Source: a virus
Length of the DNA stretch: 51,211 nt
Reading direction: 5' to 3' (one strand)
Virus record (IMG/VR): IMGVR_UViG_3300009149_000048
Location: 1-51,211 of that record
This document shows, one piece after another, positions 1,922-40,616 of this stretch. Position 1 is the first letter of the stretch; every line of letters begins with the position of its first letter. The notes under the pieces are model-generated. The model did not search any database. It saw only the letters and a list, made by a program, of their open reading frames with translations, and was not told the origin of the DNA. The position numbers were made by a program, and so were the translations under genes.

Positions 1922-1946
1922 ACTACGCCACTAAAGATGACGTAGT
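1922..1946 (-). repeat. Right-end hairpin of the TnpB element
   Basis: Plus-strand arms ACTACG (1922-1927) and CGTAGT (1941-1946) enclose CCACTAAAGATGA. Inside the arms a C/A mismatch is followed by a CA/TG pair, giving an imperfect hairpin. The tnpB stop codon (1923-1925) lies in the arm. The copy at 3271-3293 has the same inner sequence with a compensated stem pair. Confidence 0.7.
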
Positions 1947-2040
1947 TTCTCGTTTCTTAGAAGTTGCCTTAGTAGTCTTAGACTTCTTTGGTCTTATATC
2001 TTCTCCACGAGCTGATGAGGTCGTTCCGACCTCCAATATT
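1923..2040 (-). ncRNA. Candidate omega/reRNA scaffold overlapping the tnpB 3' end
   Basis: In this family the guide RNA is transcribed from the 3' end of tnpB through the right end. Two structural elements fit here: a perfect 6-bp hairpin GAGGTC-GGAAC-GACCTC (2017-2033) inside the coding sequence, and the right-end hairpin at 1922-1946. The guide would start just beyond the right end, below about position 1922. This is inferred from family knowledge; there is no direct evidence for the transcript. Confidence 0.4.
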
Positions 2041-3143
2041 CTTTGTCCTTCATTGTGAATATTAATAGCAGCATTTATATCTCTATCAATACTAGTTCCA
2101 CAAGATGAACAATTGTACTTTCTATCACTAAGAGTTAAATCTTGTTTTATTGAACCACAATTAGAACAAGTTTTACTACTAGGGTAAAATCTATCTACAA
2201 ACACTAATTCTCTGTTGTTCCATTTGCACTTATACTCTAAGATTCTCCTAAATTCATTTAGACTTAGTTCTTGAATAGAACGTGCTAATTTATGGTTCTT
2301 CATCATACCTTTCACATTTAGGTCTTCTAAACAGATAACTTGGTTCTCGTTTATCAATTTATTAACCTCCTTATGTAAAAAGTCATTCTTTTGGTTACTT
2401 ATTTTCTCATGTAACTTAGCAAGTCTAAGTCTTGTTTTATTAAACCTATTACTTCCTTTTGTTTTCTTAGACAGGTTGCGTTGCAACTTGCTTAGTTTCT
2501 TTTGGTTAGTCCTAATATACTTATTGTTCTTAGTTACTTCTCCATCAGAAGTTATAATCAAATCCTTTATCCCTAAATCAATACCTATTGTGTTTTGGTT
2601 ATTAGGTAACACTTTGTGCTCTCTTTCAACTAATATACTAAGAAAATATTTATTTGTCTTAGTTTTACTAATTGTTACAGATTTATATATTAAATCTTCT
2701 TTATTCAAATAGTTCATATCCCGTTTAGAACACTTAAATATAATATTTGCTAATTGTATATTAAGTTTTACCTTATTGCTACTGATGAACTTTTTACCCA
2801 ATTGATTATTAAACCTTATGCTTTGTTTACCATGACGATTCTTGAACTTAGGAAATCCTTTACCCTTAAAAAAATGTTTATATGCTTGGTCTAAATCTTT
2901 TAAACTTTGTTGTAATGGTACACTATGTACTTCTTTGAGGAAACTAGTATCTTCTTGTTTCTTTAGGTTAGTAATGTATTGACTTAATTGATTATAGGAA
3001 ATATTGGTTTTGTCTTGCTCATAAGCTGTCTTTTTGTAATCTAGTGCTTTGTTATAAACAAACCTACTACATCCAAATAGTTTACTTAGGTACTCTTGTT
3101 GAGTATTATTAGGATAAATACGTACCTTAATTGCTTTGAGCAT
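1923..3143 (-). CDS. tnpB: TnpB RNA-guided nuclease (IS605 OrfB)
   Basis: 406 aa, about the usual full length. The N-terminus (KAIKVRIYPNNTQQEYLSKLFG) and the FPKFKNRH segment at 98-104 are typical of the family. The split RuvC site looks intact: Asp189 in GIDLGIKD, Glu273 in CLEDLNVKGM, and Asp355 in DRDINAA. The zinc ribbon is complete: Cys326/Cys329 and Cys345/Cys348. Family members are RNA-guided DNA endonucleases that cut next to a transposon-adjacent motif and favour retention of the element. The gene stands alone between the DUF3008-like gene and the helicase, without tnpA. The start is the only ATG that keeps the conserved N-terminus. In a phage it may be a passenger or act like a homing nuclease against related phages; this is inference. 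Confidence 0.93.
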   Translation of the reverse strand: MLKAIKVRIYPNNTQQEYLSKLFGCSRFVYNKALDYKKTAYEQDKTNISYNQLSQYITNLKKQEDTSFLKEVHSVPLQQSLKDLDQAYKHFFKGKGFPKFKNRHGKQSIRFNNQLGKKFISSNKVKLNIQLANIIFKCSKRDMNYLNKEDLIYKSVTISKTKTNKYFLSILVEREHKVLPNNQNTIGIDLGIKDLIITSDGEVTKNNKYIRTNQKKLSKLQRNLSKKTKGSNRFNKTRLRLAKLHEKISNQKNDFLHKEVNKLINENQVICLEDLNVKGMMKNHKLARSIQELSLNEFRRILEYKCKWNNRELVFVDRFYPSSKTCSNCGSIKQDLTLSDRKYNCSSCGTSIDRDINAAINIHNEGQRILEVGTTSSARGEDIRPKKSKTTKATSKKRETTSSLVA

Positions 3144-8426: not shown

Positions 8427-8933
8427 ATGATACAAGAATTTAGAAATGATGCACCAATAAACAAAAGAATTATCATTGTTGGTAAAGGTGGTTCTGGAAA
8501 AGACTATCTTAAAGATATTTTTGTTAAAAGGGGGTTTAATTCTAGTGTATCATTTACAACTAGACCACCTAGAACAGGTGAAATATGTGGAAAAGAATAT
8601 TATTTTTGTTCCGATGAACAATTTCAAGAAATGATTGATAATAATAAATTTTTCGAATATAAACAATTTAATGGGTGGTTTTATGGTACAAGTAAATTAG
8701 AGTTTAATACAGCAGATGTATTTATAATGACACCACCATCTATTGATGATCTATCAAAGGAAGATAGAAAATCGAGTATGATTATTTATCTAGATATAGA
8801 AGAATCAATTAGAAAAAAAAGACTAAGTAATAGAAACGATTCAGATTCAGTAAAACGAAGGTTATTAGCCGATAATAAAATGTTTCAAAATTTTACTAAC
8901 TATGATTTAAGATTATCTGACCCAAATTTTTAA
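8427..8933 (+). CDS. Guanylate-kinase-like nucleotide kinase
   Basis: 168 aa, shorter than bacterial Gmk (about 200 aa). The P-loop is GKGGSGKD (19-26). The GMP-binding signature SFTTRPPRTGE (42-52) followed by GKEYYF (55-60) is typical of guanylate kinases. A KRLSNRND segment near 130 fits the lid. The reaction would be ATP plus (d)GMP to ADP plus (d)GDP, supplying nucleotides for phage DNA synthesis. The C-terminus ends soon after the lid helix, so it is compact. It converges with the minus-strand gene ending at 8940, 6 nt away, with no clear terminator between them. Confidence 0.85.
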   Translation: MIQEFRNDAPINKRIIIVGKGGSGKDYLKDIFVKRGFNSSVSFTTRPPRTGEICGKEYYFCSDEQFQEMIDNNKFFEYKQFNGWFYGTSKLEFNTADVFIMTPPSIDDLSKEDRKSSMIIYLDIEESIRKKRLSNRNDSDSVKRRLLADNKMFQNFTNYDLRLSDPNF

Positions 8934-8939
8934 AAAAAA

Positions 8940-9344
8940 CTAATTACCTATGGTGGGTAAATGATTTACATCGGGTCTTGCTGAATTAGATTCTATTGTT
9001 GTGTTTATCTGTCTTGTTTTTTCAAGTAAAACTTTAATATCACCTTTTAAATCACCTTGTTCCTTTATTAATCTTTTGACATCATCTCTAACAATATGTA
9101 ACGATTCGTCTAATTCTTCTTCAACATCGTTTTTTGCATCATTCATTTTGTTCTTAGTATCTTCTTGTACTAATTCAATTTCAGCTCTTAAATTGAAATA
9201 ACCAATGGTTGCAACTGTTGATAATCCTCCATATAATATTCCTATAATTAATAATAGGGTTTTCACATTAAGTTTAATAACAGAACTTAAACCTACTTTA
9301 TTTTGACCTATTTGTATTTCTTCATCTTTTATATCTTCTGACAT
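8940..9344 (-). CDS. Membrane-anchored coiled-coil protein
   Basis: 134 aa from the ATG at 9344. I chose this start because it overlaps the upstream stop as TAATG; an ATG at 9368 would add eight residues. One transmembrane segment (about residues 29-50, LLLIIGILYGGLSTVATIGYF) is followed by a long charged coiled coil (about 52-115) and a short tail. There is no signal-peptidase site after the membrane segment. The layout fits an inner-membrane protein with a periplasmic or cytoplasmic coil, such as an i-spanin-like or holin-associated factor, but no lysis enzyme is recognisable beside it. It is the last gene of the endonuclease VII operon. Confidence 0.65.
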   Translation of the reverse strand: MSEDIKDEEIQIGQNKVGLSSVIKLNVKTLLLIIGILYGGLSTVATIGYFNLRAEIELVQEDTKNKMNDAKNDVEEELDESLHIVRDDVKRLIKEQGDLKGDIKVLLEKTRQINTTIESNSARPDVNHLPTIGN

Positions 9345-9772
9345 TAATATACACTTATATTTTGCCACTTAAAATCTAAAATGGCGTTTTTATCTGTAGG
9401 GTGCCAAAAAATACATATATTTTCTTGTTCCCTAAAAAGTACGTATGGTTCAAAATAAACCTTTTGATTATTTATAAAAAAAGATACGTTATTTAATTTA
9501 GTGTATGCCCACGTTCCATCAGAATAAGTCGAATTTGATTGCACTATTAAGTAGTAATAGTAATAATAATATCCATCTTGGGGGTTGTAAACTTTATTTA
9601 CAGTTCTTGTTATAGCATAATAAAAATCTATACATTCAACTTGTTTTTGTTCACAACTATTATTGTATACTATTGTCCAATCTTGATATACAACAAACTC
9701 AGTAATTTCTTCTTTTACAATAGGTGTGAAAGAAGAAAACAAAAGTGCTAATATGAATAAGTATTTTTTCAT
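9344..9772 (-). CDS. Secreted protein of unknown function
   Basis: 142 aa with a clear signal peptide (MKKYLFILALLFSSFTPIV). No lipobox Cys follows. The mature part has two cysteines close together (SCEQKQVEC), which could form a disulfide, and an unusual run of seven tyrosines near residue 70. It overlaps the endonuclease gene by 4 nt (ATGA) and the membrane coiled-coil gene by one base, so all three are translationally coupled. A secreted phage product beside a membrane protein could act in lysis or superinfection exclusion. This is inference from location only. Confidence 0.7.
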   Translation of the reverse strand: MKKYLFILALLFSSFTPIVKEEITEFVVYQDWTIVYNNSCEQKQVECIDFYYAITRTVNKVYNPQDGYYYYYYYLIVQSNSTYSDGTWAYTKLNNVSFFINNQKVYFEPYVLFREQENICIFWHPTDKNAILDFKWQNISVY

Positions 9773-10293
9773 TGTTTTTTAAATTCTGGATCTATACCAT
9801 ATTTAATATATAATTTTTCTAGTGATTTTGTAAAATTTCCTCTTTTTTCTTTATATTCTGGAATTTTTTGTTTTCCATCTACTACTTTAACTAATTTATT
9901 ATAACATCTTTTTGTTAATATTGGTTTCAAAGGGGCTTCGGACGGGTGTATATATACAATTTCATCTGTATGAAACCTATTACATTCTAAATAATTTGCC
10001 AAACGTCTTAATAGTGTTGGTAAATCTATATATTGTTCTAAACCAAATCTTTTATATATAGACATGACTTTACCTTCAAATTGATTAGCTGAATTGTGCA
10101 AAACGTTTCTACAATAACCCTTACCGGACACCAAATCAGGTTCTAATTTTTTAAGCTGGTGGTAGTGATCTAAAACAAAGGAATCCACATCAAACTTTTC
10201 ATTTAATAATGGACAAATAAAATCTAGTTCTTTTACCCATTTAATTTTTAAATCTTTTATTTCTTTTGATTTTAGTTGTATGGATTTTTTCAT
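9769..10293 (-). CDS. Endonuclease VII-like Holliday-junction resolvase
   Basis: 174 aa (T4 gp49 is 157 aa). Residues 41-45 (LDHYH) and 62-74 (RNVLHNSANQFEG) match the His-Me finger of T4 endonuclease VII: Asp-His in LDHDH, then the catalytic Asn in CNAAEG, which corresponds to Asn70 here. In T4 the fold is held by a four-cysteine zinc site. Here Cys27 is present but the second pair is replaced by His66 and Ala69, so the site is lost or altered. The C-terminal half is helical, as in the T4 dimerisation region. The enzyme would resolve branched DNA before packaging. It is the first gene of the three-gene operon running down to 8940. Confidence 0.75.
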   Translation of the reverse strand: MKKSIQLKSKEIKDLKIKWVKELDFICPLLNEKFDVDSFVLDHYHQLKKLEPDLVSGKGYCRNVLHNSANQFEGKVMSIYKRFGLEQYIDLPTLLRRLANYLECNRFHTDEIVYIHPSEAPLKPILTKRCYNKLVKVVDGKQKIPEYKEKRGNFTKSLEKLYIKYGIDPEFKKQ

Positions 10294-10320
10294 ATTGGGT
10301 TTAAAGGAAAATCTTAATTA

Positions 10321-11337
10321 TTATAATAGATTTTTAGTTAGTTCTTGTACCAAAGCGGCACTAACAACTCTAGATGTTAATAAATTATACAAAGGGCCTT
10401 TTTCAATCCCTAGTACCTTTGCTATTAATTTACCGACTTTTGGGCCTAATGCGAATCCAGCTGCGCCCCCTATAACCCTACCTATTACACCTTCGTTTAT
10501 AGATTTTGGATTAGTTAATATAGTACGCATAAATTCTACTTGTAATGATTCTAATAGATCCATATTAGAATCTAAAATTTTATCAATTTTTGTCTTTAGT
10601 GACTTAGTATCAGTATCTAATATATTTGTTAATTTATTCAACGTGTCTGGATTAACTAAACCATTATAACTAACTTCTATGTTTATCAGTTCTTTGTATA
10701 ATTCAGATTGTTTTGATTTAGACCTCTTAGAAAGTTCTTTAGATAGCACAGAAACTAAACTAGCAGTATCCCCCAAATCTGATATTGCAATATAGATTTC
10801 ACCTTCTTGTAAAATCCTATTTTCTTTGATTTTTTCAAATTTTTTCATTGCAATTGTTTTTATCGGTTCTTGTGTGTTAACAGAAACGGCTGTACCACCT
10901 AACACATCACCACTTCCCAAATCACCATCTAAATCGGGTAAAGAAATCTCTCCCATACCATTGATAGAATCTAAATTTGTAATTTCAATACTTTCGTTCA
11001 TAATAGAAATTATAACATCGAGGTTGGTAGAAATTATTTCGATATTTGGTTTGTTTAAATCTGAAAATAGTTTGTTGGCACTATTTATTTTTTGTCTATC
11101 TTTTTTATTGAAAAAACCAGATTCGTTACCTAATTTTAATGCATTACTATAGTACATTTTTGCAATAGTACCACCACTAGTTACCATAGTCTTGTGTCTT
11201 TCATCTTTCTTATCTGTTATAGTTTTTTTTAAATCTATAAGTGCTTCTATATATTGTTCTTTAGAAACTTTATTTTCATTAAGATATTCTTGATTTTCAT
11301 TAAGACTGTTGTTGTGTATATCTTTGAATTTGTTCAT
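10321..11337 (-). CDS. Putative virion protein with glycine-zipper C-terminus
   Basis: 338 aa, family not recognised. The N-terminus is Asn/Glu-rich and probably flexible. The middle is helical. The last 60 residues hold a hydrophobic Gly/Ala-rich segment (GVIGRVIGGAAGFALGPKVG) followed by another hydrophobic helix, a pattern seen in membrane-inserting or ejected proteins. An exact ATTAAATA lies 19 nt upstream of the ATG, which argues for late expression. A role as an internal or ejected protein that inserts into the host membrane is possible but only inferred. Confidence 0.65.
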   Translation of the reverse strand: MNKFKDIHNNSLNENQEYLNENKVSKEQYIEALIDLKKTITDKKDERHKTMVTSGGTIAKMYYSNALKLGNESGFFNKKDRQKINSANKLFSDLNKPNIEIISTNLDVIISIMNESIEITNLDSINGMGEISLPDLDGDLGSGDVLGGTAVSVNTQEPIKTIAMKKFEKIKENRILQEGEIYIAISDLGDTASLVSVLSKELSKRSKSKQSELYKELINIEVSYNGLVNPDTLNKLTNILDTDTKSLKTKIDKILDSNMDLLESLQVEFMRTILTNPKSINEGVIGRVIGGAAGFALGPKVGKLIAKVLGIEKGPLYNLLTSRVVSAALVQELTKNLL

Positions 11338-33519: not shown

Positions 33520-33744
33520 TTAATATTTGTTTGGTATATCTTCTGTGTAATTATATAGGTTTTCTAATAATTTAATAGAATAATAATTATTCATTTTTAA
33601 CATTTCTAACCTTTTAAGAAAACCTTGCATTAATTCATTAGGTGTACCAGTCAAATAAGGTGACATAGTTTTTTCGAAAACATCTAATTTTTTTTGTTCA
33701 ATTGGCTCAAACGCTTGTCTTATTTGTGATTTTCTTAGTGTCAT
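33520..33744 (-). CDS. Small protein between gp6-like and gp7-like wedge genes
   Basis: 74 aa, helical, charged (TLRKSQIRQAFEPIEQKKLD, then a GTPNELMQGFLKRLEMLKMN segment). Not recognised. It is spaced 3 nt from both neighbours, so it is surely cotranslated with the wedge proteins. A small wedge subunit or assembly factor is likely from context. Confidence 0.65.
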   Translation of the reverse strand: MTLRKSQIRQAFEPIEQKKLDVFEKTMSPYLTGTPNELMQGFLKRLEMLKMNNYYSIKLLENLYNYTEDIPNKY

Positions 33745-33747
33745 TGT

Positions 33748-35562
33748 TTAACTTAATTTTCTAGGTATAGATTCTCTAATTACAATATTTAGTGCTGATA
33801 AATTATCATTATTTATACCGTTAATATATTGTACACCATTTCTATCAATAAAACCACCCCTTACTAACGGCAATTCTCGGTTCCCTATTACTATATCACC
33901 AAATTCATCTAACCCCAAGTTTGGATTTTCACCGGGTCTTAAAACTATTTTTTCGTTAGTTTCTATAGAATTACTGTCGTTTAGATTGGGTATGTCGATA
34001 TTTTCTCTAATTTTATTTAAAAGTGCGCTCGTTCTGTTATTGTTATTATAATCTATATTTTTGAAATAAAAACCATTTAACATAGCCTCTTCATTTACCC
34101 CAGATATAAAATCCACATATACAGAATCAATACCATCTATTTCTTCTATTAATTTGATAATGTCTGATCTAGGAATTTTGTCTCGTCTGTTTATGTTTAA
34201 GAAATATTCACCCACCTTATCAGTAATTTCAGCTTTGATTACATTTTCACTAATTATATCATCGAATACCCTTATAAAAACATTCAAGGCATATCTAGTA
34301 ATTATGGGATCAATGATACTTAATTCAGTGGATATTAATTGTTGTCCACTTTTATTAATTACATCATAAACAGCATCTTTGTCCTCTTCTGTTAAAAAGA
34401 AATTATTTGTATTTGTACTGAAATAATCTGAATTACTTTGAACTTTTCTTGAAATATCTGGCAATAAAAATAAATAAACTACGTTATCATCATCTAAATA
34501 TTGGTCACCAAAAGTATTGAATGCGTCTATATAACTAAATTGATTGAATTTAGACAAGAAATATATATAATTAGTAGGATTTGCAAGTACTAAACCCCTA
34601 CTATTTTTATTCATTAAAAACCTTGTCAATTCTTTGTTTTCTGCATCTGCTCCCATAGTTATTTTTTTAGAAACACTGATATCAAAAACCTCATTCAAGT
34701 CTAAGTCACCACCAAAACCGTCTGATATGGAATCAACAAATTCTAATATTATGTTAGAAGATGCTTCGCCAATATTACCATTAGCACCACTAGATGCAAT
34801 CCATTCTACTTGTATTGTTTCCCCGGTATCTGGAATATATCCATAATCTTCATTACCAAAGTAAATATCAACACCACCATTTATACCTGTTTTTATAATA
34901 ACACCCCTTTCGTTTTTTTTCATGTCATAAAGGGATTCAAAATTTTTAAATTCTTGTCCATTAACAAAAACAGTTACATAATTGTTTTCTATTTGTGCAA
35001 ATCGAGTAGGTATGTTGAAAGATTGTAGATTTGAATTGTCACCAATAAAATTAGATGTGTTTAATTCACCTTCTATAACTTGAAAATAAAACAATTCTGA
35101 ACTAGATTTTGGTATAAAAACAGAATCAGAATCTAATAATATTAGATAATTTCTTTGATTGTTTTTACATAAAATTTTTGTATATTTTTGTATTTGTATG
35201 TTTGAAACCGCAATTTCGTTAGCTGCACCCGGTTTTATCTTTAACGAAATTTCTCCCTTTGCGCTAATTGGTCTACTTGGATTGTGACCGGTTAATCTGG
35301 CCAGTCCTAAAATAGAATTTTCTTTGTATGCCGTTAATATATTTCTTTCGTTTACAACATCTTCTAGGTAAAAATATTGTAATTTATTCAATTCATCTAA
35401 TACATCAATAATTTGTCCATACGGACTTGAAGGGGAAAAGTTTAATCCTCTTTTGTCATATTCTTTTACTAAATAAGTTTCAATTTGTTGTTTTAGTTGG
35501 TCATCAAACAACCTACTTTTATCTATAATCTTATTAACTTGATTTTTTGTTCTATTTGACAT
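33748..35562 (-). CDS. Baseplate wedge protein, gp6/gpJ-like
   Basis: 604 aa (T4 gp6 is 660 aa). The baseplate J-type signature is visible around residues 228-265: GGVDIYFGNEDYGYIP, then GETIQVEWIASSGANGNIGEA. The helical N-terminus and the C-terminal beta domains fit the family. In contractile tails gp6 dimers form the ring that joins wedges. The gene follows the gp25-like gene by 47 nt, and its own promoter (ATTAAATA, 19 nt upstream) starts a transcript covering the gp6-, 74-aa and gpI-like genes. Confidence 0.85.
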   Translation of the reverse strand: MSNRTKNQVNKIIDKSRLFDDQLKQQIETYLVKEYDKRGLNFSPSSPYGQIIDVLDELNKLQYFYLEDVVNERNILTAYKENSILGLARLTGHNPSRPISAKGEISLKIKPGAANEIAVSNIQIQKYTKILCKNNQRNYLILLDSDSVFIPKSSSELFYFQVIEGELNTSNFIGDNSNLQSFNIPTRFAQIENNYVTVFVNGQEFKNFESLYDMKKNERGVIIKTGINGGVDIYFGNEDYGYIPDTGETIQVEWIASSGANGNIGEASSNIILEFVDSISDGFGGDLDLNEVFDISVSKKITMGADAENKELTRFLMNKNSRGLVLANPTNYIYFLSKFNQFSYIDAFNTFGDQYLDDDNVVYLFLLPDISRKVQSNSDYFSTNTNNFFLTEEDKDAVYDVINKSGQQLISTELSIIDPIITRYALNVFIRVFDDIISENVIKAEITDKVGEYFLNINRRDKIPRSDIIKLIEEIDGIDSVYVDFISGVNEEAMLNGFYFKNIDYNNNNRTSALLNKIRENIDIPNLNDSNSIETNEKIVLRPGENPNLGLDEFGDIVIGNRELPLVRGGFIDRNGVQYINGINNDNLSALNIVIRESIPRKLS

Positions 35563-35593: not shown

Positions 35594-35615
35594 AACTAAT
35601 TATCGACAATTAGTT
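35594..35615 (-). terminator. Stem-loop at the gp25-like stop codon
   Basis: AACTAATT (35594-35601) pairs with AATTAGTT (35608-35615) around a 6-nt loop. The stop codon (35610-35612) is in the arm. No strong T run follows, so it may be a weak terminator or processing site. Confidence 0.5.
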
Positions 35616-35975
35616 TATTACTAATCGCACTAAATTGTCATCTTCTACTAAAATATCAATAATGGCAGAATCACTTGCACCATTTTTAAAAAATTCAACA
35701 CTAATTTGATATTTAAATTCCCCAGATAACGCACAATTTCTTGTTATTTGTTGATTTATTGCTTGTTTTAATTCACTTTGTCCAACGTTAAATTCGTGCA
35801 AATAAGACTGTAACCCAACACCATAATCGGTTCTCCCCAATACTGTTGTTGGTGGTGTGCCTAAAACCATTTCGATTTCTTGAAGGAATAATTCCAACAT
35901 ATCATTAACTTCAATATTGTTTTCACTAAAATTGGTTTTGTTCGGTCTTCTTATGTAGATATCAGTTCCAGCCAT
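35610..35975 (-). CDS. Baseplate wedge protein, gp25/gpW-like
   Basis: 121 aa (T4 gp25 is 132 aa). It has the family's core: helix MLELFLQEIEMVLGTPP, the loop GRTDYGVGLQSYLHEFN at about 52-68, a helix of polar residues (SELKQAINQQITRN) and a final beta hairpin. gp25 together with gp6 and gp53 joins the wedge to the sheath initiator. It lies directly upstream of the gp6-like gene, as in other contractile tails. An exact ATTAAATA sits only 4 nt before the ATG. Confidence 0.8.
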   Translation of the reverse strand: MAGTDIYIRRPNKTNFSENNIEVNDMLELFLQEIEMVLGTPPTTVLGRTDYGVGLQSYLHEFNVGQSELKQAINQQITRNCALSGEFKYQISVEFFKNGASDSAIIDILVEDDNLVRLVIN

Positions 35976-36008: not shown

Positions 36009-36779
36009 TCAAAGTCCATTCGTATGGAGGAAAAACGAGCTTCCACCACCAATGTTTTTAACCTCTTCCTTAATTTCGTCCATTTGTGTTTTACCTTGAT
36101 CGTAAAACCTATCATAATTAATAGAAGCATTTCCAGGAAGTGTCATTTGAAATGTTCCTAGTATATTAGCCAATTGCATTTTTGCATACCCAACACAATA
36201 ATAGAAAAATAAATCTAAGTCGTATAAAGATTCATATGGTATTCTAATATCACAGTCTAATAAGAAATCTGGATCGTGTTCTAATGAACCCTTTAGAAAC
36301 AACTTATTAGTTTGTCTACTGTATGAGTATGATATGGGATAGTTTAGTATATGATATGTTAAATCACCCCAACTAGAAGCAATAACATATCCCAAGATCG
36401 CATCGGATTGTGTAGTATCTTCAACACCACCAAATCCACTATTTATACCCCAATTAGAATAAACATATTTATCAAATGAAAAATCTGGGTATCCATTCAT
36501 TTGTCTTTTAGAAACTTGATCTTTTGCAACAGCATTCACTGAATATATACAATTGGGTAATGTTAATTTTCTACTAGCTTTAAATTCTTGATTATTGGAC
36601 CAAACCTCTTTGGGAATAGATAAATATATATTATCAACAGCATCTTCGTAATTTCTATAGAACCATTGTGCAGCAAAATTAACTATGTTATCTATGGCTT
36701 TTTCTGGAATAGAAAATGGTAAACTGCATGAAACAGTAATATCATTGTTTAAATTGTCATAAAAATCTCTCTTAGTCAT
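36009..36779 (-). CDS. Unrecognised virion-cluster protein, 256 aa
   Basis: No family recognised. The N-terminal half is helical with aromatic residues (KAIDNIVNFAAQWFYRNYED). The C-terminal half contains a hydrophobic helix (DLFFYYCVGYAKMQLANILG) followed by a charged amphipathic helix (QGKTQMDEIKEEVKN). It lies between the amidoligase and gp25-like genes and is spaced 17 and 33 nt from them, so it belongs to the baseplate/tail block. A neck, tail-terminator or wedge role is conceivable. An exact ATTAAATA lies 4 nt before the ATG. Confidence 0.65.
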   Translation of the reverse strand: MTKRDFYDNLNNDITVSCSLPFSIPEKAIDNIVNFAAQWFYRNYEDAVDNIYLSIPKEVWSNNQEFKASRKLTLPNCIYSVNAVAKDQVSKRQMNGYPDFSFDKYVYSNWGINSGFGGVEDTTQSDAILGYVIASSWGDLTYHILNYPISYSYSRQTNKLFLKGSLEHDPDFLLDCDIRIPYESLYDLDLFFYYCVGYAKMQLANILGTFQMTLPGNASINYDRFYDQGKTQMDEIKEEVKNIGGGSSFFLHTNGL

Positions 36780-36796: not shown

Positions 36797-38101
36797 TTAA
36801 TCTAGCATTTCATCTAAATTTTCAACATCTACATCTATTATCATAGTATTATCAGCAATTGTAGTACTTGAATATGTACCTTTTCTAAAAATCCCACCAT
36901 TTATATCAGAATCTAATAGTTTTACATCATCTAAATAACAATTAGTAAATTCACAATATATATAATTTGCATTTTTAATCCTACTATGCTTAAATATAGT
37001 ATCTTGGGATTTACACCCATCTAAATCAGAACCAGAAACCCTACAATCATATAATTCTGTGTTTAATAAAACGGTGTTTATTAATCTACAATCATGTAAT
37101 AAGATTGCTGGATTTTCTATAAATGTTCTTTTTATAGTAAACCCAGACCATTCAATTTTAGAACTATCGGTATCGTAATTTATAACACCAGACATATTAA
37201 ATTTAACTTCTTTCATTTTAATTAGAATTGGGAATATGTTTTTCCATATTATAGGAAAAAACAATTTTAAAATTTCTTTGTTATCTTTAGTGTCTACTTT
37301 TAATTCTACATTTTTAAATATGTTACTGAAATTAAAATAGTTTTGTCCTGCTAGAAAAACTTTTTTCTTTGGTTCTAATAAATCTATTAATTTTTTCTTT
37401 ATATCATCTGGATTTGATTTGTAACAATCTTTGATACTTTGTAAAAAGAAATCTAATAAAAATAATATATCTGATTGTTGATGTTCATATTTTTTACCAC
37501 CAAGGTATCTAAATTCTAAATAGTTCTTTTTTATTTTTTCGAAATTAATACCATAATATTTTGACATCGGATAAACAAAACTACTTCTACTTGTTGTTAT
37601 GTTTGCAAAATCAAAATTGTTATGTAACGGCACTATGTCTTTTATAGATTTAGTATAAATGTTATCTTCTCGATTTGGAAAACGTTTATAAACTTCAGAT
37701 TCGTCGAAAGTTAAAATAAACTTTAGGAGGTCTATGTTTTCGATATAGTTATTTTTCGGGTAACTTAAATTTAGGTGCAAACCACATCTATCGGTTGTCT
37801 TTACATCCTTTGTGTTTCTTATCCATTTAAGAACTTTTATTAGTACTATCCTAGCATGGTTGTATTGTAATGGTCCCGTGATTAATTCACATGTATATTC
37901 CCCAGCACTAAAATCATCTTCTATTTTCCAATGGTTGTCGGTAGGTACAAAATCCGTATGATGACCATTTTCTAGTTTTATATCAACTTTTAGTATTTTT
38001 TGTAATTCCCTTTTTATTTCTGTCCTTGTGAATGTGGGGTTTCTTATAAATTCAAATTCAATACCAACAGTTGTATTGTAAATTTCTGGGTCTTTTTGCA
38101 T
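36797..38101 (-). CDS. Amidoligase-family enzyme fused to pentapeptide-like beta-helix
   Basis: 434 aa. Residues 1-300 carry the motifs of the glutamine-synthetase-like amidoligase family: GIEFEF (13-18), WKIEDDFS (58-65), ELITGP (72-77), CGLHLNLS (106-113) and LEFRYLGGKKYE (195-206). Such enzymes form amide bonds between carboxylates and amines using ATP. From about 305 to 420 the protein changes to short repeats with a hydrophobic or small residue every five positions (HDCRLINTVLLNTELYDCRV, SDLDGCKSQDTIF), a pentapeptide-like right-handed beta-helix. The gene sits within the baseplate block, has an exact ATTAAATA 18 nt upstream and follows a strong terminator. A role in covalently modifying a virion or host protein is inference. 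Confidence 0.75.
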   Translation of the reverse strand: MQKDPEIYNTTVGIEFEFIRNPTFTRTEIKRELQKILKVDIKLENGHHTDFVPTDNHWKIEDDFSAGEYTCELITGPLQYNHARIVLIKVLKWIRNTKDVKTTDRCGLHLNLSYPKNNYIENIDLLKFILTFDESEVYKRFPNREDNIYTKSIKDIVPLHNNFDFANITTSRSSFVYPMSKYYGINFEKIKKNYLEFRYLGGKKYEHQQSDILFLLDFFLQSIKDCYKSNPDDIKKKLIDLLEPKKKVFLAGQNYFNFSNIFKNVELKVDTKDNKEILKLFFPIIWKNIFPILIKMKEVKFNMSGVINYDTDSSKIEWSGFTIKRTFIENPAILLHDCRLINTVLLNTELYDCRVSGSDLDGCKSQDTIFKHSRIKNANYIYCEFTNCYLDDVKLLDSDINGGIFRKGTYSSTTIADNTMIIDVDVENLDEMLD

Positions 38102-38128: not shown

Positions 38129-38160
38129 AAAAAAGCAACCATCTCTGGTTGCTTTTTTTT
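38129..38160 (-). terminator. Strong terminator after the S1-domain gene
   Basis: AAAAAAGCAACC (38129-38140) pairs with GGTTGCTTTTTT (38147-38158) around a 6-nt loop. Both sides have A/T runs, so it can work in either direction. Confidence 0.88.
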
Positions 38161-38163
38161 ATT

Positions 38164-38286
38164 GATTTCTAAAACATATTTATTATATGGGATTTCAAGT
38201 GTTTTTAACATCAACACTTTTTCAAACCATTTCTAAAACATATTTATTGTCCGAATTATCAAGTATCTTAACCTTAACACTTTCCC
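38164..38286 (-). repeat. Decayed tandem copy of the S1 gene 3' end
   Basis: The last ~58 bp of the S1 gene (38229-38286) are repeated, with drift, just downstream of its stop codon (38164-38223). A 20-nt core ATTTCTAAAACATATTTATT is identical in both (38165-38184 and 38229-38248). The downstream copy still encodes NKYVLEI in one frame, matching NKYVLEM, but the rest is broken by stops. Confidence 0.7.
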
Positions 38287-38584
38287 CTCTTTCTAAATCT
38301 TTGTCACTTTTAAGTTTACTTATGTGAATTAATCCAGTTGCATTTTTACCTAATGAAACGAAACTTCCATATTTTACAGTTTTTACAACTCTACCATCTA
38401 CTATTTCACCCTTTGTGAATTTTGGTTTAGATGCTTCTTCCGGATCAACAACAAATCTCGATAGAATTATTTTTCTATTAGTAACTATTTCTTTCAAATA
38501 AAAATCTATTTCCCTACCTGGTGTAATAGTATTATTATCAAACATATCATTTAAAACATCATCGAAATCATCTTTGTGAATCAT
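38222..38584 (-). CDS. S1-domain protein, C-terminal part of an interrupted gene
   Basis: 120 codons from an internal ATG. It holds the end of S1 repeat 3 (MIHKDDF through IILSRFV) and a complete S1 repeat 4 (GEIVDGRVVKTVKYGSFVSL, GLIHISKL, SVKVKILD). The same frame extends upstream without a stop to 38803 and encodes the first half of repeat 3 (GAVYTDKVTGTKPFGVFIEF) and the end of repeat 2. Thus this is the tail of a four-S1-repeat protein that begins at 39340 and is split by the TAA at 38801-38803. Whether this part is translated separately is unknown. No promoter-like motif or leader is obvious near 38584. Confidence 0.6.
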   Translation of the reverse strand: MIHKDDFDDVLNDMFDNNTITPGREIDFYLKEIVTNRKIILSRFVVDPEEASKPKFTKGEIVDGRVVKTVKYGSFVSLGKNATGLIHISKLKSDKDLERGESVKVKILDNSDNKYVLEMV

Positions 38585-38800
38585 ACCCGTTAATACATCG
38601 TTAAATTCGATAAAAACACCAAACGGTTTTGTTCCAGTTACTTTATCTGTGTAAACAGCACCTATTTCTAATTTTTCAATTTCTAACGGTATTAGTGTTT
38701 CTAAATAAGCTCTGTGAGAAACTATTAATTGATCTTTGAATTTAGAATATTTGTTTTCGTTTTTAATTGGAATAACTTTTATATTTTCCCCTATTAAAGA

Positions 38801-39340
38801 TTAAAAGTTTAACAATTTGTTTATTCCACCTAAACTCCCCGGCATAAATACGTCTACACCTTCTATATCTAATATATATCCATTTTCTGTTAAATTTAAT
38901 ACCTTAGCGTCGTATACTTTTTTATTGTCAGCATCTTTCATTTCATTGTATAAAGATGTTTTTACGTGTTCTAAAATACTGGCTCTTAAATAATTATCTG
39001 TGTTTGTGACTAATGCTTCGATTTCTTGACCTATACTATAATTTTCTGGATCTAATCGGTCTTTTTCTATAGAAATATACGCAAATTCTTTACTACCTAA
39101 ATCTAATAGTATACTTTCTTTGTTTATTTGTGCAATTTCGCCTTTGATTGATTGGCCTATTTCTAAGACTGGGTTTTTTGGTAATCTACTAAACGATTCA
39201 TCATAAAGTTTTAGTAATTCTTCTACATATGACTCATTTGATAGTAATTTACCATTTTCTAAAATGATTTCTTCATTTGAGTTAGATTCAAATATGGAAA
39301 TGTCATCTGAATTACCATATATTGTTTTTTGTTCATTCAT
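38801..39340 (-). CDS. S1-domain protein, N-terminal part ended by an in-frame TAA
   Basis: 179 aa. An acidic leader of about 50 residues precedes S1 repeat 1 (about 60-120, IGQSIKGEIAQINKESILLDLG) and the first half of repeat 2 (KVYDAKVLNLTENGYILDIE, VFMPGSLGGINKLLNF). The stop at 38801 cuts repeat 2 in mid-domain. The sequence after the stop in the same frame (SLIGENIKVIPIKN, then LIVSHRAYLETLIPLEIEKL) is the natural continuation. S1 repeats bind single-stranded RNA, and the intact protein resembles a shortened ribosomal protein S1. It is placed between a 171-aa virion-cluster gene and the amidoligase gene. Confidence 0.75.
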   Translation of the reverse strand: MNEQKTIYGNSDDISIFESNSNEEIILENGKLLSNESYVEELLKLYDESFSRLPKNPVLEIGQSIKGEIAQINKESILLDLGSKEFAYISIEKDRLDPENYSIGQEIEALVTNTDNYLRASILEHVKTSLYNEMKDADNKKVYDAKVLNLTENGYILDIEGVDVFMPGSLGGINKLLNF

Positions 39341-39902: not shown

Positions 39903-40616
39903 TTATTCACTATCTAGTGTCACTAGTGTACTTTTAAATTGTGCCCATTCACTTTGAAATTTTTGAACTAAACCTGCCCACGTAGGTGAACCACTAATCG
40001 GCCCTGATGGACCAGCCGGTGTTGCTATTGCACTAATTTTACCTAATTCTGTTATAAAGGAATTCAATAATTCTTCTAGTGTGTCACCTAAAACAGCGGG
40101 TTCCGCAGATGTTCCTTCTGAACCTAAACTAATACCATCTTCACTAATATGTATAACCTTTTCAGTAGAACCATTTGAAATAATAATACTTTCATCTTCG
40201 TTTTTAATTTGAACGAAACTATTTGATTTTCTAATCATTAATCCTTGTGTATCGGTATAGAATATTTCTAGTGTTTTTTCTTCACCTATTGTTTTGTCAT
40301 ATGCAATAGACCAAACCAACGGATAGTCGTCTGATATTTCATCTAGTAAATCATCATTGATCTTTGCAATTCCCATATAAAAAGGAATATTTTCATCACC
40401 ATTTTCGAAGAAAACATTACAAATTTCTCCAATTTTAGGAATCATAATAGTTCCAGAAGATAATTGATTATATGGAATAGACCATGGTATAACCTCTTCG
40501 TCTAATTCATCAAATTTTCCAAATATCCTAATTTTAACCCTTCCGAGTTTTAACGGATCTTCTACATCTATTACCTCCCCAACCCATATAGTTCCAAGTG
40601 TTACGTCTTTAAACAT
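39903..40616 (-). CDS. Baseplate spike protein, gp5 OB-fold type without lysozyme
   Basis: 237 aa, much shorter than T4 gp5 (575 aa). The N-terminal OB fold is clear: WVGEVIDVEDPLKLGRVKIR (11-30), then PWSIPYN and GEICNVFFENGDENIPFYMG. This matches the gp5/VgrG/gpV start (WVGIVEDRLDPLKLGRCRVR in T4). No lysozyme domain follows. Instead there is a short beta region (TLEIFYTDTQGLMIRKSNSF, VIHISEDGISLG) that could form a small spike, and a helical C-terminus. The hub genes lie directly upstream, as expected for gp27-gp5 partners. Confidence 0.8.
   Translation of the reverse strand: MFKDVTLGTIWVGEVIDVEDPLKLGRVKIRIFGKFDELDEEVIPWSIPYNQLSSGTIMIPKIGEICNVFFENGDENIPFYMGIAKINDDLLDEISDDYPLVWSIAYDKTIGEEKTLEIFYTDTQGLMIRKSNSFVQIKNEDESIIISNGSTEKVIHISEDGISLGSEGTSAEPAVLGDTLEELLNSFITELGKISAIATPAGPSGPISGSPTWAGLVQKFQSEWAQFKSTLVTLDSE

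Follow-up and report, generated by a model that had tools for sequence, protein, structure and literature searches.

A pentapeptide-fused amidoligase gene in the neck–baseplate operon of a phage lineage, with catalytically dead orthologues under purifying selection

The window, by which we mean the whole stretch of DNA analysed, is an IMG/VR virus record of 51,211 bases with 29% G+C. Its tail genes are T4-like, comprising a phrog_211 neck-type protein, gp25-like and gp6-like wedge proteins and a Phage_base_V hub, and it further encodes a gp32-like protein and a UvsW-like helicase. Also present are an IS605 OrfB/TnpB-type gene (1923–3143, minus strand; PF01385, PF07282) and a short guanylate-kinase-like gene on the opposite strand (8427–8933, plus strand; PF00625, E = 7e-21), which has a relative in contig L007. 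Among the tail genes, an open reading frame of 434 amino acids with an ATG start was confirmed at 36797–38101 on the minus strand. We refer to this amidoligase-pentapeptide gene and its product as AMI. The features of the locus are as follows.

36797–38101, minus strand: AMI, the amidoligase-pentapeptide gene (open reading frame, Pfam, AlphaFold2 model)
37493–38074, minus strand: amidoligase (glutamine-synthetase-like) domain of AMI (PF12224, E = 1.9e-11; residue conservation; model strands)
37202–37486, minus strand: middle part of AMI, mainly helical, residues ~206–300, with D270 conserved (model helices; conservation)
36866–37147, minus strand: pentapeptide beta-helix of AMI, residues ~319–412 (PF00805/PF13599, periodicity, model, solved pentapeptide proteins matched by profile)
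36009–36779, minus strand: neck or head-tail adaptor-like gene (phrog_211, E = 6.8e-11), 17 nt after AMI and adjoining it in nearly all relatives
35610–35975, minus strand: gp25-like baseplate wedge gene (phrog_43 and PF04965, both weak)
33748–35562, minus strand: gp6-like baseplate wedge gene, the independent marker (phrog_219, E = 6.7e-32; scans)
38222–39340, minus strand: frame of an S1-domain protein, upstream of AMI and with an internal TAA at 38801–38803 (PF00575 in both pieces; intact, ~370–450 amino acids, in relatives)
39903–40616, minus strand: baseplate hub/spike OB-domain gene, Phage_base_V, gp5/VgrG-like (PF04717, E = 7.3e-9; phrog_37871, E = 3.4e-28)
38129–38158, no strand: terminator-like hairpin separating AMI from the S1 gene, in the same place in L002 and L017

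An earlier note, made from the letters of this DNA, had read AMI as an amidoligase joined to a pentapeptide-like helix. The five amidoligase motifs it quoted are all present in the order it gave, and both folds are borne out. Amidoligase_2 (PF12224) matches AMI with 44.8 bits against a cut-off of 22 (E = 1.9e-11), and the pentapeptide family PF00805 with 27.7 bits against 20.2. At E ≤ 0.01 the PF12224 match is found in 17 of 38 aligned relatives, the largest huge phages falling below the cut-off. Five-residue periodicity over residues 319–412 scores 30, whereas shuffles average 18.5 (sd 1.6) and none of 20,000 reached the observed value. An AlphaFold2 model built on 38 sequences is a two-part chain with a mean pLDDT of 90.3 and a pTM of 0.82. 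In its residues 333–381 (model numbering is AMI protein numbering minus 1) strands are spaced exactly five residues apart, about ten turns' worth. The C-terminal end of this helix carries a conserved motif, GG-I/V-F-R-x-G (G403, R406, G408).

When the model was searched against the PDB with Foldseek, glutamine synthetase was the top match (E = 4.6e-4, probability 1.00) and Qnr/MfpA-type helices were matched separately. The TM score to glutamine synthetase is low, ~0.28, over the two-part chain. A profile search of the enzyme half against solved structures gave no ligase even at E = 10, only kinase noise. Against BFVD there was one whole-length match, A0A6J5PQ40, and after it came dozens of hits to phage amidoligases, confined to the enzyme half. 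The conserved residues of the amidoligase domain are E15, E17, K59, E61, D63, E72, H109, N111, E196 and R198. In the model E15/E17, K59/E61/D63, E72, H109/N111 and E196/R198 sit on the strands of the domain, where they would form the metal/ATP site of a glutamine-synthetase fold. As the earlier note had held, the catalytic set (ExE, E, HxN, ExR) is intact in the window copy, and it is invariant or nearly so, with single exceptions, in 43 non-redundant relatives.

The gene immediately upstream had been called a truncated S1 gene. That description does not hold, as the frame at 38222–39340 has its full 372 codons and a single in-frame TAA (38801–38803), at which relative L003 reads Gln. A point (nonsense) change or a sequence error is the more likely origin. 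Stop-codon reassignment was rejected because more genes in the window end in TAA than in any other stop. Just after the stop of the S1 gene comes a partial copy of its 3' end, seen as a 52-nt imperfect direct repeat (73%) at 38154–38269. Nor did the claim that AMI has its own promoter and terminator stand up: promoter-like matches are at chance level (27 found, 35 in shuffles), and the hairpin at 38129–38158 lies upstream of AMI. The 17 nt that separate AMI from the neck gene in the window contain no terminator. In the AMI leaders of relatives such as L053, L061, L069 and L085, an invariant ATATATA box lies within a hairpin directly before the AMI start codon, and the outer stem of this hairpin varies in sequence while keeping its complementarity. 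[AG]ATATATA is ~45 times denser in intergenic DNA (145 in 25.7 kb) than in coding DNA (87 in 693 kb), and ATATATA also precedes S1, gp25 and another tail gene. The element is probably a late promoter accompanied by a 5' hairpin. In the clade to which the window belongs, a terminator-type hairpin takes the place of the ATATATA hairpin before AMI.

The proposed link to the tail is upheld by gene order. The usual arrangement in 43 non-redundant AMI loci runs from the S1-domain protein through AMI, the neck protein and gp25 to the gp6-like wedge. Because circularity was to be avoided, prevalence was scanned with the gp6-like wedge protein as query instead of AMI, using two wedge queries and the best-scoring 80 loci per scan, and the figures that follow refer to these. 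In the first scan, 76 of the 80 loci have AMI upstream, three meet a contig end, and one (L107) is without it. L107 and LR756500 have 100% identical wedge proteins, and in LR756500 AMI lies ~10 kb upstream of the wedge gene. The second scan, in which the wedge protein of the window itself was the leading query, added 16 further contigs, all 16 with AMI. Over the 96 contigs of both scans AMI is upstream and on the same strand in 92, that is, in 92 of the 93 contigs with room for it; the S1–AMI–neck–gp25–gp6 order was never shuffled over both scans, with contigs counted twice. The gap between AMI and the neck gene is -8 to +18 nt in nearly all relatives (17 nt in the window), and therefore one transcript, often with translational coupling, is suggested. 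Visual inspection of the C-termini of neighbouring proteins, in search of a conserved tail that could be ligated, turned up nothing convincing. A small protein of 70–94 amino acids follows the wedge gene in a conserved position (33520–33744 in the window and, among relatives, for example L047:7332–7604); it belongs to two sequence families (clusters 22 and 11).

The fusion that the earlier note had wanted surveyed proved widespread in viral contigs as full-length, two-part orthologues. A profile scan of IMG/VR gave at least 450 relatives among 598 candidate stretches, the closest to the window AMI being 64–68% identical among the matches listed. All 90 other full-length relatives are ~404–471 amino acids long and have both halves. 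Among named phage records, the full architecture occurs only in uncultured huge phages of 462, 634, 636, 642 and 735 kb, whose AMI proteins are 29–37% identical to that of the window at 87–99% cover. Such huge phage genomes have been described (PMC7162821, PMC9723777), and Bacteroidetes hosts were predicted for the five genomes above 634 kb in one of these studies (PMC7162821). Lak-A1 (541 kb) has no AMI relative by this profile. In 84,980 bacterial and archaeal genomes, AMI matches were confined to two short MAG contigs, one of which (L092) holds the neck, gp25 and wedge genes of a phage. The four largest phages (634–735 kb) have AMI outside the tail block, with tail genes within a few kb in most, so tight linkage characterises a single branch.

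The wedge-based scans also surfaced orthologues whose catalytic site is dead. In syntenic, full-length AMI orthologues the E/H/E catalytic residues have been lost in at least two independent lineages, amounting to ~17 contigs. L149 has E15A, E72N, H109L and E196K and is 73% identical over its whole length to the intact L074. In its sister L164, eight of the ten catalytic residues are changed. In further groups (L112/L115/L122; L178/L201/L205/L207; L198; L199/L204) E72 and H109 are replaced, as E196 usually is too. Every one of these genes is an open frame of full length, and gene order is unchanged where checked. Assembly error is ruled out for the L112 type because it recurs in several separate contigs at 57–100% identity. 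By the well-supported branches of the trees, the site was lost independently at least twice; deep joins among long branches are unsure. Dead-site contigs that were tested for a second AMI copy had none; these are fragments of genomes, 18–69 kb long.

The losses are concentrated in the active site. Against 4 of 10 catalytic sites changed in L149 stand 2 of 29 other invariant N-domain sites, and against 8 of 10 in L164 stand 5 of 29; invariant C-terminal sites are kept in both, with at most one exception in each. For dead pairs dN/dS is 0.030 (N-domain 0.012) and 0.047 (N-domain 0.037). The figures for intact pairs are 0.04–0.08, or 0.03–0.07 in the comparison with the dead N-domain. By this measure of sequence change, the dead N-domain is under purifying selection, its constraint no weaker than in intact pairs. 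A model of the dead L112 protein has the same fold (pLDDT 86, pTM 0.82), which is partly inherited from the intact relatives in its alignment. It shares the BFVD neighbours of intact AMI, including A0A6J5PQ40 (TM ~0.77–0.81 over the AMI models). The nearest relatives of the window copy are intact, so catalytic loss does not extend to all close relatives.

Published accounts place phage amidoligases in early cassettes of several genes, for which a role in modifying the cell wall has been proposed (PMC3890496, PMC5498523, PMC10580990). Their partners there, located among the early genes, are class-II glutamine amidotransferase, ATP-grasp and GGCT (PMC3890496). AMI has its domain family and fold in common with the Amidoligase_2 proteins of phiEco32, LUZ24/tf/UFV-P2, CW02 and Atu_ph07, among others. 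However, the known phage amidoligases either belong to early multi-enzyme cassettes (tf, UFV-P2) or match AMI only in the enzyme half, whereas AMI has a pentapeptide fusion, no cassette, a place in a neck–baseplate operon and pseudoenzyme branches. Its neighbours are neck and baseplate genes rather than those of a phiEco32/LUZ24-type cassette, and the cassette partner GGACT was found only far from AMI, in three of nine records. The distant amidoligase gp196 of Atu_ph07 falls within a virion-protein cluster, CDS 170–215. Salicola phage SCTP-2 encodes two tandem large proteins with C-terminal amidoligase domains (L011:7041–8861 and 8858–10801) near a ClpP-like protease gene. Fold search places the N-terminal half of AMI with the GS/gamma-glutamyl ligase fold (GS, YbdK, gamma-GCS, GshF), although AMI is much smaller than these and has no profile match to solved ligases. 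The uncharacterised A0A6J5PQ40, from an uncultured Caudovirales phage, has a two-part architecture like AMI but is only 18% identical to the window protein.

The pentapeptide half also has known counterparts. In T6SS, pentapeptide-repeat proteins are accessory proteins for assembly of the VgrG-PAAR spike (PMC13373197, PMC11883445). There, in TvpAB/TvpB, DUF2169 carries the PPR part at its C-terminus and the genes lie next to those of the VgrG/PAAR spike, whereas the partner in AMI is an amidoligase. No Pfam match to DUF2169 or PAAR/DUF4150 was found in AMI or the window genes scanned, which leaves AMI outside the Tvp proteins, and there is no sequence evidence of common descent of the two. The parallel may be a functional one only; descent is not claimed.

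Taken together, our results lead us to favour, with modest confidence, AMI as a core tail/neck morphogenesis factor of a huge-phage lineage, one that uses its whole fold to bind partners and acts as a catalyst too in most lineages. The basis for this is formed by both folds, the intact active-site residues of the window copy, the fixed synteny, the tight link to the neck gene and the purifying selection seen on dead-site orthologues. AMI is kept under strong selection after its catalytic residues are lost, and therefore its core job is probably structural rather than that of an optional add-on enzyme; selection without an active site, together with a fixed place in the neck–baseplate operon, makes a binding or assembly part the simplest reading. 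From this basis we infer neck/tail protein binding, ATP use, amide-bond formation and the kind of substrate. The two-domain protein would bind neck/tail partners and help to assemble them, or remain in the virion. Docking could plausibly take place on the pentapeptide helix, which ends in a conserved motif. In intact copies, including that of the window, the glutamine-synthetase-type site probably uses ATP to join a carboxylate to an amine on a partner; candidate products are a crosslink between proteins or the addition of an amino acid, a peptide or a polyamine. The earlier note had proposed amide-bond chemistry for the gene. The intact site of the window copy agrees with that, but as the whole point of the gene it is weakened because syntenic orthologues with dead sites, in several lineages, stay under purifying selection.

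The same orthologues would suit a pure assembly chaperone that does not become part of the virion, wrapping or holding a neck or spike component during its construction, with the amidoligase site, even in copies that retain its residues, a relic or a nucleotide sensor that carries out no ligation. The T6SS precedent of pentapeptide accessory proteins at a VgrG-like spike points this way, as does the hub/spike OB gene ~1.8 kb upstream of AMI. However, the catalytic residues are among the most conserved in the 43 non-redundant relatives, across very divergent phages, and a relic would not show such conservation; we consider a pure chaperone unlikely. Dead-site orthologues are ill-suited to a host-modifying enzyme, which is one difficulty for the idea that AMI acts on peptidoglycan or another host surface component in superinfection exclusion. 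The enzyme family is the same as that for which this was proposed, in phiEco32-like and LUZ24-like amidoligase cassettes (PMC10580990, PMC5498523), but those amidoligases sit in an early multi-enzyme cassette and AMI stands alone in a neck–baseplate operon. GATase_6 was found in none of nine records, the five huge phages included, whereas all 14 control genomes were positive. A host-facing role thus seems to us quite improbable.

The earlier note had seen in AMI a late cargo gene, or moron, optional for the phage, whose enzyme would crosslink or tag the baseplate or a small molecule. Its distinct domain fusion and the terminator-like hairpin beside it could be taken in that sense. Fixed synteny, prevalence and the upstream position of the hairpin contradict it: AMI is near-universal in this phage lineage, embedded in the operon and tightly coupled to the neck gene across a gap of a few nt, and the AMI–neck junction has no terminator. 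With 92 of 93 contigs carrying AMI where there is room, we reject the cargo reading as very improbable. Still less credence goes to a DNA-mimic or gyrase-type role of the helix, as in Qnr and MfpA, carried along with the tail genes. The five-residue beta-helix is common to AMI and to Qnr, MfpA and AlbG, and both profile and fold matches reach MfpA and QnrB1. By family cut-offs, though, AMI is not a Qnr protein (22.2 bits against 360 for the MfpA model; 18.8 against 460 for QnrB), its C-terminal part has little acidic character (mean net charge -2.6, range -8 to +3), and it sits in a neck–baseplate operon.

A tentative extension of the morphogenesis reading, possible rather than probable in our view, is that a GS-type amidoligase fold came to serve as a core structural or assembly part of the contractile tail or neck in the largest phages, with catalysis in second place, giving an ATP-dependent covalent modification of the virion (isopeptide or amino acid) where the site is intact and structure only where it is dead. 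The HK97 crosslink is autocatalytic, whereas the amide modification proposed for AMI virions would be enzyme-made. We found no earlier report of the pentapeptide-amidoligase fusion, of its place in a tail operon or of its pseudoenzymes in the main texts of the openly readable literature, and a prior mention is possible; a review of jumbo phages has amidoligases only in a reference title (PMC7824862).

AMI is a strict, unannotated member of the neck–baseplate module. It serves as a lineage marker gene, one that escapes the standard Pfam cut-off in the largest genomes. The full architecture was found in no cultured phage among named phage records, and the tail assembly of this huge-phage lineage is accordingly unstudied. 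If the morphogenesis reading is true, an ATP-using ligase fold would have been turned into a morphogenesis factor, and its natural dead versions would separate binding from catalysis.
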